Source: Chloroflexota bacterium (GTDB lineage: Bacteria; Chloroflexota; Anaerolineae; Anaerolineales; Anaerolineaceae). Taken from it: 33,540 nt of DNA. Shown piece by piece: positions 25,128 to 33,540 of this stretch. The position numbers were made by a program, and so were the translations under genes. The DNA lies in contig WOUT01000026.1 in the NCBI GenBank assembly GCA_009773005.1, positions 1 through 33,540 on the forward strand, given 5' to 3'. The notes below the pieces were generated by a model. It had not been told where the DNA came from. It was given only the letters and a program-made list of their open reading frames with translations, and searched no databases. The number at the start of each line of letters is the position of its first letter. Positions within the stretch are counted from its first letter, which is position 1.

Positions 25128-26768
25128 TTACGGTAAAACTGTAATTCTATTCGCTAGTCCAGGCGCGACGGGCGAATTCGCCCTGAAATAATCAACCAGC
25201 GCGTCAATATCTACCTGACCTACCAGTCGGTTTGTTCCTTGGGTCAAGACGGTAAAACCATCGCCGCCCGTTGCCAGAAAACTATTGACGGTAATCTGAT
25301 ACGAAAGAGCGGGATCAACGGGTACGTCGTAGAATTTCAAGTCAGTTACTCTGCTTCCAACGGCTGCCGATTTGGTCCAGGTATAGGTAACGCCGTTAGA
25401 TATTTGAAGCGTTAAATTGGTGGTTGCCTGCTGCTCAAGCACGGCTTTAATCTGTGCCCCGGTCAGGGTCATGGTTACTAAATCATTGCCGAAAGGCTGA
25501 ACTGTAAATGCTTCACCATAGGTGATCTCACCTGGCTGCTCACCGGCTGAAATTTGAGCATATGTAAAACTTGCGCGGATTCCACCTGGATTCATAAAGG
25601 CAGCGACTGCTCCTCCTTTTTCAGGAGCAGAAGTTGAAGCCAGTTGAGCATCTGCGATTACATCCCCAAGCGGGGATTCGCGAGTTCTATCGCCGTAACG
25701 AAGGATATCGGCAGTGATGCTGCCAATAACACGGTTTGCCAATGGGGCAGAGAGCGCCTGATATTTATCTACCAGAGCAGTCATTTCTGGATCTTTGGCA
25801 ACGGTCTTTAAAACTGGCACGTTTAACACTGTTTTGCTGACAATATCACCTGAATCCCTATCCAGCACTAGGTCAATCTCGGTTATATACTCCCCATTAG
25901 TGAGAGCTCCAGTAACCAACCGGTCACTGATGTTACAGTTATAAGCGCCGTGAGTGTGACCTGTGATGAATAAATCAATCTCAGGGTCGCTCGCGTTCAC
26001 CACATTAGCGATGCTTCCACTGAAATTAATACACGCATTTGGATCCAGACTTGCTGAGGGTACACCTTGAGATCCGCCATCGTGTATAAGCATGACAATC
26101 GTTTTGATTCCTTTTTCTTTTAGTTCTGCTGCGATTGCATTAACTGCTGTGGTTTCATCTAAAAATTCAACTCCAGCGGTTCCTGCCGCAGTAACAATCG
26201 TGGGCGTTTTATCGTAGGCAATTCCTACAAAGGCAACCTTGGCGCCCGCAAAACTTCGAATTTTATACGAAGAAAACAAAGTTTGACCGTTCTTAAGATT
26301 GATCACGTTACCCGCAAGAAATTTGAAAGACGCTCCCGGGAAATCGCCGGCTAAACAACCATCAACAGGATGACAACCGCCCTCTTGTAAACGCTTAAGC
26401 TCTTGAACACCCTCATCAAACTCATGATTTCCTGTGATCGCATAGTCAAGCCCCATCAAGTTGAATGCCAGGATGGTGGGCTCATCATGGAAGAGCGCTG
26501 ATATTAAAGGACTTGCGCCAACCATATCTCCGGCAGAAACGAAGATCGTATTTTCGTTTTCTGCCCTTTTTTGTTTAACAAGAGTGGCCATGTATTCTAC
26601 ACCACCACGGGCGCCAGAGGTTACCAGGGCGCCATGAAAATCATTTACCGCCAGGATCTGCACTGCAACCGTCTGCTTCGGGGCAGCAAGACCTGTGATA
26701 AACAGGCTGGCAAGCAAAAAAATTGTGGTTAATACTGAAAACATAAATTTAATTCTTGTCCTGCGCAT
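25128..26768 (-). CDS. Secreted 5'-nucleotidase / metallophosphoesterase
   Basis: A 546-residue secreted enzyme of the UshA/5'-nucleotidase family that removes phosphate from nucleotides outside the cell. It has a signal peptide (1-28, ending TGLAAP) and a metallophosphoesterase domain with VNDFHGAL (metal Asp/His), SAGDMVGAS, ITGNHEFDEG and FITGHTHGAY; all dinuclear-metal motifs are intact. A 5'-nucleotidase C-terminal domain (about 345-510) includes MNPGGIRASF and YGEAFTVQPFGNDLV. There is no LPxTG or C-terminal membrane helix, so it is probably released. ATG 26768 has GGAGGG 6 bases upstream. With the neighbouring deoxynucleoside kinase it could serve nucleoside scavenging, although the two are separated by a terminator. 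Confidence 0.93.
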   Translation of the reverse strand: MRRTRIKFMFSVLTTIFLLASLFITGLAAPKQTVAVQILAVNDFHGALVTSGARGGVEYMATLVKQKRAENENTIFVSAGDMVGASPLISALFHDEPTILAFNLMGLDYAITGNHEFDEGVQELKRLQEGGCHPVDGCLAGDFPGASFKFLAGNVINLKNGQTLFSSYKIRSFAGAKVAFVGIAYDKTPTIVTAAGTAGVEFLDETTAVNAIAAELKEKGIKTIVMLIHDGGSQGVPSASLDPNACINFSGSIANVVNASDPEIDLFITGHTHGAYNCNISDRLVTGALTNGEYITEIDLVLDRDSGDIVSKTVLNVPVLKTVAKDPEMTALVDKYQALSAPLANRVIGSITADILRYGDRTRESPLGDVIADAQLASTSAPEKGGAVAAFMNPGGIRASFTYAQISAGEQPGEITYGEAFTVQPFGNDLVTMTLTGAQIKAVLEQQATTNLTLQISNGVTYTWTKSAAVGSRVTDLKFYDVPVDPALSYQITVNSFLATGGDGFTVLTQGTNRLVGQVDIDALVDYFRANSPVAPGLANRITVLP

Positions 26769-28872: not shown

Positions 28873-28906
28873 TCTGTCATTGCGTCATCACCATGAAGGA
28901 CCTGAC

Positions 28907-30183: not shown

Positions 30184-30211
30184 CACAGGGTTATTTACAC
30201 AGGGTTATTTA
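30184..30211. repeat. 14-bp exact tandem duplication
   Basis: CACAGGGTTATTTA occurs twice without a gap (30184-30197, 30198-30211), ending 5 bp before the -35 of the TIR gene. The rest of 30088-30183 is A/T-rich with nothing recognisable. Confidence 0.85.
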
Positions 30212-30245: not shown

Positions 30246-30322
30246 GACTTCAACAAAATTAATGTTCTCCAGTTCAGTCACGATGTTAAAAAAACAGGAA
30301 TATCTACAGGGAGGGATAAGCT

Positions 30323-32350
30323 GTGAATCCAATAAGGAAGATATTTTTCGTAACTTTAATCTTCATATTTGTAGTTTCTTGCTCTCCGGTTGCAAATCAG
30401 ATAGTTCTCGATATACCTACTCCTCAGCCAACACCGGTCTCAATTGTAGCTCCAGGTCCAAATTATTTATATACCTACAACGCATATCAAGACGGTTATG
30501 ATGAACGTGTGGCAAATGGATATTTGTTTCTTAAGTCTGGATACAGCTACACATTTGATTATTACGGCATTCTGGAACAAGTAGAGGTTCGCCAGATGTC
30601 GAATGACAAATTAATTGGTTATGCGTTGTTAATAGCAACCTATGACATTGATGGGGCATTCAAAGGTTTAGAACGACCAATTGCATTAATCGATACCAAT
30701 GGTGATGGGTTAGTGAGTATTCAAGAACTGAATCATGCACTTGCCAAACAGCGCGAAGAAGTTAAGGGAATTATTGAATCCCAACCCACACTTATGACAA
30801 GATTTGAAGCAGAAATTTCAACTGCATCAAATTTGATAGACCGTGGCGAAATTGCTAATGCATACCGAACTATCAAACAACTCGATATTGAGCTTACTTA
30901 TGTAGCAAAAACCCTCAATGATGCACAGATTGCAACCAAAAATCAGAAAACAAGGGTTTTTATCATTAGCGCAATTGTCGTTGTTCTCTTGTCTCTCGTT
31001 GTATTCTTGGTATTACGTCGTAGAAAGAGTGGAGAAACCGCTTCTAGGAGCAAATCCAACAAGAAAGTATTACTATGTTTCGATAAAAGCGATCTTTTTA
31101 GAGCCAGTGTTGTGAGAAAAAGTTTAGAAAAAAAAGGAAAAGAAATTGTTGGTTTCTTCAATATTGCAGATTTTGAAGAACTTGAAGGTAGAAGGGATGA
31201 TTCAATCAGTAATTGGATAGATAAGCAAATCGATGATGTTTCTGTAACCGCTGTTCTCGTTGGCAATGAAACGTGCAGTAATAAATGGATTAAATATACG
31301 ATAGAAAAAAGTATCAAGAATGGGAACGGTTTGTTGGGAATCGATATTAGTAAAATCAAGGATGCTGAAGGGAACAAGACTAATCGATGCGGCAAGATCC
31401 CTGAAGGGTACGCATTCTATCTCTGGTTTAAGGATGAAGGGGAGGAGAACCTTGGTACTTGGATTGAGGAAAGTACTCAAGCGCATCCAAAGAAAGTATC
31501 TTCCAGAGCAATTTCAGATCAAAAAGCGAATATTGAAGCAGAATTTCCGCGGGCGGTGACCAGATTTCCTGAAAGCAGGAATACCCATGAAAATCCCCGT
31601 AAAACGACCTGGGTAAGAACAATCACAGGTATCGGAATATTGGCCGTAGCCGCAATTCTTTTATTCGTTGTTTTAGGGAACAGAAAGAATAATATGGAAC
31701 AGGTTCTTGTTGCCAGTTCAACACCTGATTTAATGCAACTTAACACATCCATCGCTGCGCAGACCGAAGCATCGGTTGTTGACCAACAGGGTGACTCCGT
31801 TCCGGCGGAGGTTCAAGCATTGGCAGACCAAGCATTTGCAAACGGTGCGATGATCTATCTTTACGATCAACAGCCCGCAGTTGTACCTTTATCGGAATTG
31901 AATAGCACAACCTTCTCACTGCGTTATATCCTATCCAGAAATGCAAGTCGAATGACCAACATCTTGCTTCTCTGGAAAGGCAATGCCGAAGGTACACGAG
32001 AGTTCATAATTCCTGAGAACGACTATCTCATGCCCCAGACAATCATGTTTGGAGAATACACATTTGGTGATTGGGCACGTGAAACGGGGACGGTAACCTT
32101 TACAACAAAAAGCCGTATGGCTGATACTTCAAATCAGCAAGGAACTGACCCCAATACAGCGGTATTTACAACCTGGATCATTACTTTTGATGGCACGAAC
32201 CCTCTTTACGCCCGCCCGAACCAGAAGGTGGAAAACCCGGTGTACCTAGATGTTATGCTGGTAGTCCCGGAAAAACAAGGAGAAAATCTATTACTGCCGG
32301 ACGATGCAAGGCAACTCAGCAATACCGTGAGATTCGAAATTACGCCATAA
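30323..32350 (+). CDS. Lipoprotein/EF-hand/transmembrane receptor with internal ThsB-like TIR domain
   Basis: A 675-residue protein starting at GTG 30323 (GGGAGGG 7 bases before). In order: lipoprotein signal with lipobox VVSC (Cys20); Pro/Thr-rich linker; an aromatic-rich region (about 45-115); a complete EF-hand loop DTNGDGLVSIQE (124-135); a helical, coiled-coil-like stretch (138-207); transmembrane helix 213-231 followed by RRRK; a TIR-like domain of the MTH538/ThsB type (about 248-345, with KVLLCFDKSDLFRASVVR, GFFNIADFEE, WIDKQIDDVSVTAVLVG and NGLLGIDISKIKD); a linker; transmembrane helix 433-452; and a beta-rich C-terminal region (about 500-675) I do not recognise. The arginine-rich cap after the first helix puts the TIR domain in the cytoplasm and both ends outside. 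ThsB makes a cyclic ADP-ribose-type signal in Thoeris phage defence. Here the usual Glu of the W-V-x-Y-E motif is Thr326 (KWIKYTIEKS). Whether this is an enzyme, an adaptor or a sensor is open. Confidence 0.85.
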   Translation: MNPIRKIFFVTLIFIFVVSCSPVANQIVLDIPTPQPTPVSIVAPGPNYLYTYNAYQDGYDERVANGYLFLKSGYSYTFDYYGILEQVEVRQMSNDKLIGYALLIATYDIDGAFKGLERPIALIDTNGDGLVSIQELNHALAKQREEVKGIIESQPTLMTRFEAEISTASNLIDRGEIANAYRTIKQLDIELTYVAKTLNDAQIATKNQKTRVFIISAIVVVLLSLVVFLVLRRRKSGETASRSKSNKKVLLCFDKSDLFRASVVRKSLEKKGKEIVGFFNIADFEELEGRRDDSISNWIDKQIDDVSVTAVLVGNETCSNKWIKYTIEKSIKNGNGLLGIDISKIKDAEGNKTNRCGKIPEGYAFYLWFKDEGEENLGTWIEESTQAHPKKVSSRAISDQKANIEAEFPRAVTRFPESRNTHENPRKTTWVRTITGIGILAVAAILLFVVLGNRKNNMEQVLVASSTPDLMQLNTSIAAQTEASVVDQQGDSVPAEVQALADQAFANGAMIYLYDQQPAVVPLSELNSTTFSLRYILSRNASRMTNILLLWKGNAEGTREFIIPENDYLMPQTIMFGEYTFGDWARETGTVTFTTKSRMADTSNQQGTDPNTAVFTTWIITFDGTNPLYARPNQKVENPVYLDVMLVVPEKQGENLLLPDDARQLSNTVRFEITP

Positions 32351-32452: not shown

Positions 32453-33037
32453 ATGGTAAATGATGTTTTATTCAAGGTTGGACTTTTGCAGGCAATCATT
32501 TTTGTGCCTGCGCTGGTAGGATTGGTCATCGGGATCATCGCTCTGATAAAGATATCGAGGTACCGGAAAAAGCATAAGGAGTCCGTTCAGGCGATTGAGG
32601 TGCAAGTAGATCAGGTTGACACTCTGGCACTTAGCGTCCCCTGGCTAAATAATGGCTTTGTGTCAGGTCTGTTTATGGGAGTCACAATTGGCGGTGGTTT
32701 TTGTGCCCCTTATCTGGTGGTCTATATTATGAGATTTTTATCTTTGGTCAGTGCCAACGCTGGGACAACATTTAATTGCATTAGTTTCATCCTTGGCATT
32801 GGCTTGGCCTTTTTATTTGGCCGCATGACAAAAAAGGCAATCATAAGAATTGGCTTGAATACAATTGGTTTTACTGGTAATGGGGTGGGTCGGATATTGC
32901 TGGCAATTCTTGGTGTGGTCGTCGGATTTATGACCGGTCTAGTTTGTTTGGCAATGGTACTGGTTCCTTTTGTTATCATAAAATTACTGCTAGTGTTTAA
33001 CCCTTATCATCCCCAAATATATTTTCAAAGTGGATGA
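32453..33037 (+). CDS. Four-helix membrane protein of unknown function
   Basis: A 194-residue protein I do not recognise. It has hydrophobic helices at about 11-32, 68-93, 107-123 and 147-180; the last may be two short helices. A basic loop, ISRYRKKHKE, after the first helix implies that this loop is cytoplasmic. Glycines and small residues are frequent in helices 2-4 (GLFMGVTIGGGF, ILAILGVVVGFMTGL), allowing close packing. There is no signal peptide, catalytic motif or named domain. AGGAG lies 7 bases before ATG 32453. It follows the TIR-lipoprotein by 102 bp and precedes another lipoprotein by 24 bp, so it may belong to the same membrane system as a partner or pore; that is inferred from position. 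Confidence 0.75.
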   Translation: MVNDVLFKVGLLQAIIFVPALVGLVIGIIALIKISRYRKKHKESVQAIEVQVDQVDTLALSVPWLNNGFVSGLFMGVTIGGGFCAPYLVVYIMRFLSLVSANAGTTFNCISFILGIGLAFLFGRMTKKAIIRIGLNTIGFTGNGVGRILLAILGVVVGFMTGLVCLAMVLVPFVIIKLLLVFNPYHPQIYFQSG

Positions 33038-33061
33038 TTGAACTCTTGTAAGGAGAAAAAC

Positions 33062-33540
33062 ATGGATCGCAAATACTTATTTTTCATAACACTGGTCGTT
33101 ATGTGCATCGTGATTTCCGGGTGTGGACCTTCGGCGGATCAGACGGCTACTATGACCGCAGCCGTGTGGTCTCCTTCTCCCAAACTAACCCTTGTCCCAC
33201 CCACTGCCACAAACACCTTAATTCCACCGACTGCCACTCCCATCCCCCCAACGCCAACACAGGAGAATTCGGGTACACTCATTTCCCTCGTCAAGATCGT
33301 TAACCATGAAAGTATGCCACCTAACGGCCAACAACTTTGGCTTGAATTCGCTATTAACCCTGGGGATATTTTACCGGGATCGCAGGTCGAGGCATTTCTA
33401 AACAATGGCACTCTGGAATTGGTCCTGCCAGGTGGTGAGAAAAAAACTTTGACACTTGTGCCTCATTCCCCCACCGATGATGAACTTTCAACAGATATTT
33501 GGTTACCAGAAGGTACCGGCATACGATGGTCACGTCCACC
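33062..33540 (+). CDS. Lipoprotein with Pro/Thr-rich linker, cut by window end
   Basis: Open frame of 159 codons running off the window. A signal with lipobox ISGC (Cys21) is followed by a Thr/Pro-rich linker (about 40-66, with PPTAT repeats) and a start of a beta-rich domain (ISLVKIVNHESMPPNGQQLW...). AGGAG at 33051-33055 lies 6 bases before ATG 33062. It starts 24 bp after the membrane-protein gene and is probably co-transcribed. The linker style matches the first lipoprotein in the operon (PTPQPTP), so both are likely displayed on the outer face of the cell membrane. The domain cannot be named from this fragment. Confidence 0.82.
   Translation, partial: MDRKYLFFITLVVMCIVISGCGPSADQTATMTAAVWSPSPKLTLVPPTATNTLIPPTATPIPPTPTQENSGTLISLVKIVNHESMPPNGQQLWLEFAINPGDILPGSQVEAFLNNGTLELVLPGGEKKTLTLVPHSPTDDELSTDIWLPEGTGIRWSRP

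Follow-up and report, generated by a model that had tools for sequence, protein, structure and literature searches.

A ThsB-Type TIR Domain without the Catalytic Glutamate in a Predicted Membrane Protein of Receptor-like Layout

In most of the literature that we consulted, bacterial TIR domains are described as processing NAD+ or assisting one that does. Animal Toll-like receptors and MyD88 carry TIR domains that lack the NADase glutamate and are thought to signal by TIR assembly. Thoeris ThsB (PF08937), represented by structures of the B. cereus protein (6lhy, 9b7d) and of EcThsB (8wcf), is a soluble protein with E85 and Phe6 that pairs with ThsA. E85 is reported to be required for ThsB activity (PMC10022894), and Phe6 is described as lying in its potential active site (PMC7272460). 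PDC-M50B, a PADLOC candidate defense system and partner of PDC-M50A, consists of a separate soluble TIR beside a separate membrane protein. Sau-ThsB1, from Staphylococcus aureus Thoeris, is described as binding a phage capsid protein and recruiting the enzymatic ThsB2, with its own catalytic glutamate being dispensable (PMC12578639). The catalytic glutamate is likewise reported to be dispensable for oligomerization and toxicity of amoebal TirD, and for Dictyostelium TirC, a captured bacterial TIR, the gain of a transmembrane (TM) helix is held responsible for its taming (PMC13142454). No membrane-anchored ThsB-type pseudo-TIR is described in the parts of the papers that our literature search covered.

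The DNA analyzed here, termed the window, is an entire contig (C64) of 33,540 bases. It belongs to a 2.86 Mb assembly of 105 contigs with a completeness of 97.5% and a contamination of 3.1%. The product of the gene at 30323-32350 on the plus strand, termed the window protein, has the TIR fold and sequence family of ThsB in common with Thoeris.

Gene, Domain Order, and Predicted Topology

The gene (30323..32350, plus strand) has 675 codons with a GTG start and encodes 675 aa. A GGGAGGG element read from the sequence (30309..30315, plus strand) is a likely ribosome-binding site 7 bases upstream of the GTG. Codon usage in the frame of the gene beats that in the other five frames in all six segments of 30323-32350. 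The GC content is 37–39% over the first 400 codons (30323-31522) versus 47% over the last 215 (31703-32347); for comparison, the window averages 44.9%, and values near 45% are found for PAR1 and PAR2, two paralogues described below. Upstream of the gene, at 30184-30211, two head-to-tail copies of CACAGGGTTATTTA, visible by eye, form a short tandem duplication. Two further genes lie downstream on the same strand and are possible operon partners. One, 102 bp after the gene, encodes a 194-aa multi-span membrane protein (32453..33037), and the other, truncated where the contig stops, encodes a putative lipoprotein (33038..33538). Neither product has a Pfam match, and neither shows significant similarity to the C-terminal domain of the window protein (E 1.7 or worse).

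The contig is consistent with its genus. Between about 18–20 kb and degV (29174), gene order is mostly kept in all five same-genus stretches compared; the gene at 25128 has a counterpart in none of them and the gene at 28880 in one. A TIR gene beside degV is absent from all five stretches, four of which have other membrane-protein genes at this location. Adjacency of the window to C101, the contig that holds the paralogues, was also considered; no 15-mer of the last 200 window bases recurs in the part of C101 that was compared.

The initial annotation had described a single polypeptide in which a lipoprotein anchor, an EF-hand loop, a TM helix, a TIR domain, a second TM helix, and a second ectodomain follow one another, and each of these elements is present in the sequence in that order, all on the plus strand. 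The lipobox is a motif rule for bacterial lipoprotein signal sequences and ends in Cys. Residues 1–20 (30323..30382) comprise a signal sequence, with hydrophobic residues 7–25, and a lipobox, VVSC, at residues 17–20, in which Cys20 is the putative lipidation site. A region of uncertain fold separates this lipobox from an EF-hand calcium loop, DTNGDGLVSIQE (residues 124–135, 30692..30727). The rule for the 12-residue EF-hand loop is D1, N/D3, D5, G6, a hydrophobic residue at position 8, and E12, and the loops of both the window protein and PAR1 are canonical. Their scores with Pfam EF-hand models are below the cut-offs: 18.4 bits versus 25.4 for EF-hand_1 (PF00036) in the window protein and, at best, 20.7 bits versus 25.9 in PAR1. 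The structure model contains a helical ectodomain at residues 133–211 (30719..30955), and residues 177–235 are predicted to form one continuous helix that leads from it into and through the membrane. Hydropathy places TM helix 1 at residues 212–230 (30956..31012), followed by a basic LRRRK stretch, and TM helix 2 at residues 434–452 (31622..31678). The TIR domain lies between them at residues 247–387 (31061..31483), and a C-terminal domain, for which model confidence is mostly <50, occupies residues 453–675 (31679..32347).

The topology call combines hydropathy with the charge pattern. Hydropathy yields three hydrophobic segments, residues 7–25, 212–230, and 434–452. Within the 25-residue loop ends, Lys and Arg number 15 for the TIR loop versus 4 and 5 for the two other loops, and the TIR is therefore placed inside. 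In 20-residue flanks, these residues number 4 before and 7 after TM helix 1, and 4 before and 2 after TM helix 2. The TIR is thus predicted to be cytoplasmic, as had been proposed, with the head and the C-terminal domain predicted to be outside. The full-length AlphaFold2 model, computed from 39 aligned sequences, is weak overall (mean pLDDT 59.8, pTM 0.39). No relative of the C-terminal domain (residues 453–675) was detected. The sole other match to it in 201 genomes (G047, E 0.003) falls in an open reading frame (ORF) that resembles a solute-binding lipoprotein and was rejected as chance; four weak N-terminal matches in other genomes (E 0.005–0.009) were likewise taken as signal-sequence or chance matches.

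Identity and Active Site of the TIR Domain

The TIR of the window protein is firmly assigned to the ThsB type. The Pfam model ThsB_TIR (PF08937) matches residues 257–344 with 46.4 bits, well above its cut-off of 21.2 (5.6e-12), and structure superposition extends the ThsB fold to about residue 387. The PADLOC profiles for ThsB and PDC-M50B match at 7.7e-35 and 1.2e-29, respectively, and a phmmer search of PDB sequences finds B. cereus ThsB with an E of 1.5e-14. The TIR model superposes on ThsB (6lhy) with a Z of 18.1 and an rmsd of 1.3 Å over 123 residues at 32% identity. The next fold matches are a B. cereus TIR (Z 14.2), followed by other TIRs and nucleotide hydrolases (Z 12.3 and lower), and the best Foldseek match is likewise ThsB. 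These fold-search matches span the TIR region, the other domains being hardly tested by them. Over residues 251–390, 11 of the 14 ten-residue blocks have a mean pLDDT of at least 92; the lower values are 65 and 77 at residues 271–290 and 81 at residues 381–390. A different flavodoxin-like fold for residues 248–345, which had been named as an alternative, is not borne out, with ThsB 6lhy giving the best superposition.

Residue equivalences were taken from the PDB-match alignment to B. cereus ThsB, with the numbering checked. Thr326 (31298..31300) aligns with the catalytic glutamate (E85 in B. cereus ThsB), and Leu250 (31070..31072) aligns with the active-site Phe6. In a 51-row alignment, Glu fills the E85 column in 47 of the 48 relatives, the exception being L060, which is frame-broken and unreadable; the window protein has Thr there, and PAR1 and PAR2 both have Ala. 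A later set of ten relatives includes six that were already aligned; the four new ones all have Glu, which brings the total to 51 of 52 including the unreadable L060. At the Phe6 column, Phe is kept in PAR1 and PAR2 and in 42/42 relatives from the genome-contig scan described below, and Tyr is found in L004 and L006. A glutamate neighboring Thr326, E328, is present in all three genes of this genome and is variable across the family.

The genome was searched for proteins that could work with this TIR. A SIR2-STALD ThsA was not found: PF18185, searched across the genome at E 0.1, has no match, and a scan of seven proteins from the window revealed none either. Of the four models for PDC-M50A, PDLC04686 was searched at the same E and likewise has no match in the genome. 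Besides the three TIRs of the window protein, PAR1, and PAR2, the genome contains no ThsB_TIR (PF08937) or TIR_2 (PF13676) match above the cut-off, and these models reveal no Glu-bearing TIR that could be recruited. A PF08937 match on contig C96, at 14.9 bits far below the cut-off, resembles a nucleoside deoxyribosyltransferase-type protein and was rejected. With the catalytic glutamate and Phe6 both substituted and no STALD ThsA detected, the Thoeris-style NAD+ mechanism that the initial annotation had envisaged is unlikely; both paralogues have also lost the glutamate. From the substitution at this position, we infer that all NAD+ chemistry would be abolished.

Relatives in Other Genomes and Paralogues in the Same Genome

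Genome contigs were scanned with two motifs taken from this genome's own sequences, a procedure that samples the near subfamily; 257 stretches matched, and 42 loci were confirmed, of which alignment A3 took in 36 and alignment A4 took in 26. By hydropathy, none of the 42 ORFs contains a TM segment (L060 being a 74-residue fragment), and ten relatives from a genome search all fall below the same threshold. A profile search finds a PDC-M50A-like small membrane protein in 22 of the 42 loci. Its gene precedes the TIR gene in 21 of them and follows it in the other, and three representatives match PADLOC PDC-M50A. A SIR2-STALD protein is encoded in six loci. One of these proteins is ThsA (PADLOC 6.6e-201, and Pfam), and the other five are 49–66% identical to it. 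Because the relatives lack TM segments and some have PDC-M50A-like or ThsA-type neighbors, the family from which this TIR derives resembles a soluble ThsB/PDC-M50B defense protein. The PDC-M50A-like protein and its soluble TIR (L020, L027, L044, and 19 more, from many phyla) themselves constitute a candidate defense pair. In a separate observation, two TIR_2 proteins, a SLOG cluster-3 (LD_cluster3) protein, and a ThsB-type TIR lie side by side at L026:2554-5435. The larger TIR_2 and SLOG clusters are common to L033, L039, L048, L049, and L055, and together with L026 these loci may represent a multi-TIR Thoeris-like variant.

Searches with the window protein return TIR-only matches in 6 of 150 genomes and in 2 of 395 at class level (E 1e-10), and a search with the TIR alignment returns matches in 2 of 399 phylum-level genomes (E 1e-8); the three genome sets overlap, and the matches lie in open frames of 147–208 aa. 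The combination of ectodomain and TM segment is absent from 395 other class-level genomes, an alignment search of 396 returning only the two copies of this genome. The full architecture was found in one genome only. No relatives were found in phage records or viral contigs. Among plasmids, 52 records matched, and the best 20 of the 52 match over the TIR alone.

The two paralogues lie side by side on contig C101 of the same genome. PAR1 (L002:1624-2541, minus strand; 305 aa) comprises a lipobox, LASC, an EF-hand loop, DSNRDGMITPEE, a TM segment, an RRRR stretch, and a TIR, and then ends. Its ectodomain and TM segment are 33% identical to those of the window protein. The ectodomain alone aligns with that of the window protein at a score of 95, against shuffles with a mean of 28.5 and a maximum of 52 (n = 300, slightly longer piece). 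The shared layout of lipobox, EF-hand, TM, and TIR is thus more than chance, and the receptor-like arrangement claimed at the outset gains support from its recurrence; these four elements occur together in two genes of the assembly, which lie on separate contigs. The PAR1 model (mean pLDDT 81.9, pTM 0.48) has a helix at residues 92–150 that runs from the ectodomain through the membrane, like residues 177–235 of the window protein, and the fold search with its TIR gives a Z of 19.6. PAR2 (L002:292-1425, minus strand; 377 aa) consists of a multi-span domain with weak similarity to DUF898 (21.7 bits versus a cut-off of 28), followed by a ThsB-type TIR without the catalytic glutamate. It represents a second, different membrane architecture carrying the same type of TIR. 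The second TM segment and C-terminal domain occur in the window gene only and are absent from both paralogues. The next ORF of at least 120 aa after PAR2 (L010:7253-7756, also on C101) encodes an aminoglycoside-2''-adenylyltransferase-like nucleotidyltransferase (PF10706, 1.2e-27).

In a phylogenetic tree, from which L060 was left out and in which the bootstrap is not settled, the three TIRs of this genome form one clade (support 100/99), and the relatives around it come from many phyla. A long branch (1.33) leads to the window TIR. Over the TIR, dN/dS is 0.17–0.20 for PAR1 versus PAR2 and 0.20–0.37 for the window protein versus PAR2, each by three methods; for the window protein versus PAR1 it is 0.20, usable by one method of three. 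The single clade, the loss of the glutamate in all three genes, and the low dN/dS together fit a single loss followed by duplication under continued constraint, although the order of these steps is our reconstruction.

Candidate Functions and Comparison with Known Systems

Our preferred reading is that the window protein is a membrane-anchored, receptor-like pseudoenzyme in which the TIR would serve as a scaffold or adaptor without NAD+ cleavage, and we hold it tentatively, at slightly less than an even chance. In the proposed mechanism, a ThsB/PDC-M50B-type TIR would have entered the lineage, lost its catalytic glutamate, and been duplicated onto three membrane carriers, perhaps in that order. 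The window protein would present to the outside a lipid-anchored helical head with a single EF-hand loop, along with its second, C-terminal domain. The modeled continuous helix (residues 177–235) would span the membrane and couple the head to the TIR, such that binding of Ca2+ and/or a ligand outside might move or cluster the helices. The clustered TIRs could then dock other TIRs, foremost those of the two paralogues, or some other partner, and the TIR would act as a scaffold, as in animal TLR/MyD88, with no cleavage of NAD+. Ca2+ binding, ligand sensing, and signaling by the window protein are steps that we infer from its layout. A stronger form of this reading is a transmembrane TIR receptor without NAD+ chemistry that operates by TIR–TIR scaffolding via the three membrane-bound paralogues. 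It would be an independent bacterial arrival at the Toll-like receptor principle, starting from antiphage ThsB; we consider it a real but rather doubtful possibility. Several observations count against the preferred reading: no TIR partner is known, the EF-hand is a single loop below the Pfam cut-off, the architecture occurs in one genome only, and the full-length model is weak. The long branch of the window TIR could also mean relaxed constraint rather than new function.

That last point bears on a different reading, in which the gene carries a decaying or dispensable remnant, namely a dead defense TIR within a membrane protein whose real job lies in its outside domains. Besides the branch length, this reading would fit the restriction to one genome and the several positions, conserved at 90% or more, at which the window protein differs and PAR1 or PAR2 does not. 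However, the 675-codon frame is intact, dN/dS is well below 1, three paralogues are kept, and most of the strongly conserved positions are retained in the window protein, and we regard decay as improbable. The retained fold, with its rmsd of 1.3 Å to ThsB, and the constraint on it are also consistent with signaling in the opposite direction. A dead TIR might bind NAD+ or cyclic ADP-ribose without cleavage and relay this event to the membrane or outside domains, acting as a nucleotide-gated membrane effector. The family habitually pairs a TIR with a membrane protein, 22 of the 42 loci having one of the PDC-M50A-like type, and PAR2 joins its TIR to a multi-span domain. Against such a sensor, the pocket Phe6 is lost as well in the window protein (L250), the genome has no detectable Glu-bearing ThsB-type TIR to make the signal, and no pore-like feature was identified in the window protein. 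An effector of this kind is accordingly unlikely in our estimation.

The remaining two readings are much less probable. A Thoeris sensor proper, in which an outward-facing ThsB makes a cyclic ADP-ribose messenger once activated, conflicts with the replacement of both the catalytic glutamate and Phe6, with the failure to find a STALD ThsA in a genome that is 97.5% complete, and with a window protein predicted not to be soluble. It draws on the family match by Pfam, PADLOC, and the PDB and on the ThsA-type SIR2-STALD gene in the loci of six of the 42 relatives, and we judge it very improbable. The initial annotation had also raised the concern that the two ends of the protein might be separate genes joined by error. 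For the N-terminal two-thirds this concern is allayed, since these parts are joined again in PAR1; the C-terminal third is without a homologue. If the C-terminal TM segment and domain came from another gene through an assembly or annotation error, the composition step at about residue 400 and the end of PAR1 right after its TIR would be expected, and no homologue joins these parts. However, one uninterrupted reading frame spans the gene, codon usage favors that frame in all six segments, and the contig holds the degV-deaD gene block of the genus up to the neighboring gene, leaving only a slim chance of a chimera. If the preferred reading, a receptor-like pseudoenzyme with a scaffolding TIR, is correct, a bacterial defense enzyme can give rise to the scaffold use that TIRs are known to have in animal receptors, and the step from enzyme to receptor becomes testable in a bacterial system.

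Set beside the described systems, the window protein is not classed as a Thoeris ThsB despite its ThsB-family domain, because it is predicted to be membrane-anchored rather than soluble, has T326 in place of E85, and comes from a genome in which no STALD ThsA was found; it also differs in having L250 in place of Phe6. Its TIR also matches the profile of PDC-M50B, whereas here the TIR is fused to its membrane parts and no PDC-M50A was found with PDLC04686. Like the window protein, TirC combines a bacterial-type TIR with a predicted TM helix, which in TirC was gained after capture; as described, however, TirC keeps the catalytic glutamate, is a toxic NADase, and resembles the TIRs of TIR-STING proteins (PMC13142454). 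With animal Toll-like receptors and MyD88, the window protein shares an ectodomain, a TM helix, and a predicted cytoplasmic TIR without the NADase glutamate. Unlike Toll-like receptors, it has no leucine-rich repeats that we could see, no known adaptor or kinase, a TIR of the bacterial ThsB type, and an extra C-terminal TM segment and domain. On the basis of its predicted domains, it is so far TLR-like in layout only. By analogy, the precedent that appears closest in logic is Sau-ThsB1, which, according to its description, still has its glutamate (E318) and works with ThsB2 and ThsA (PMC12578639).
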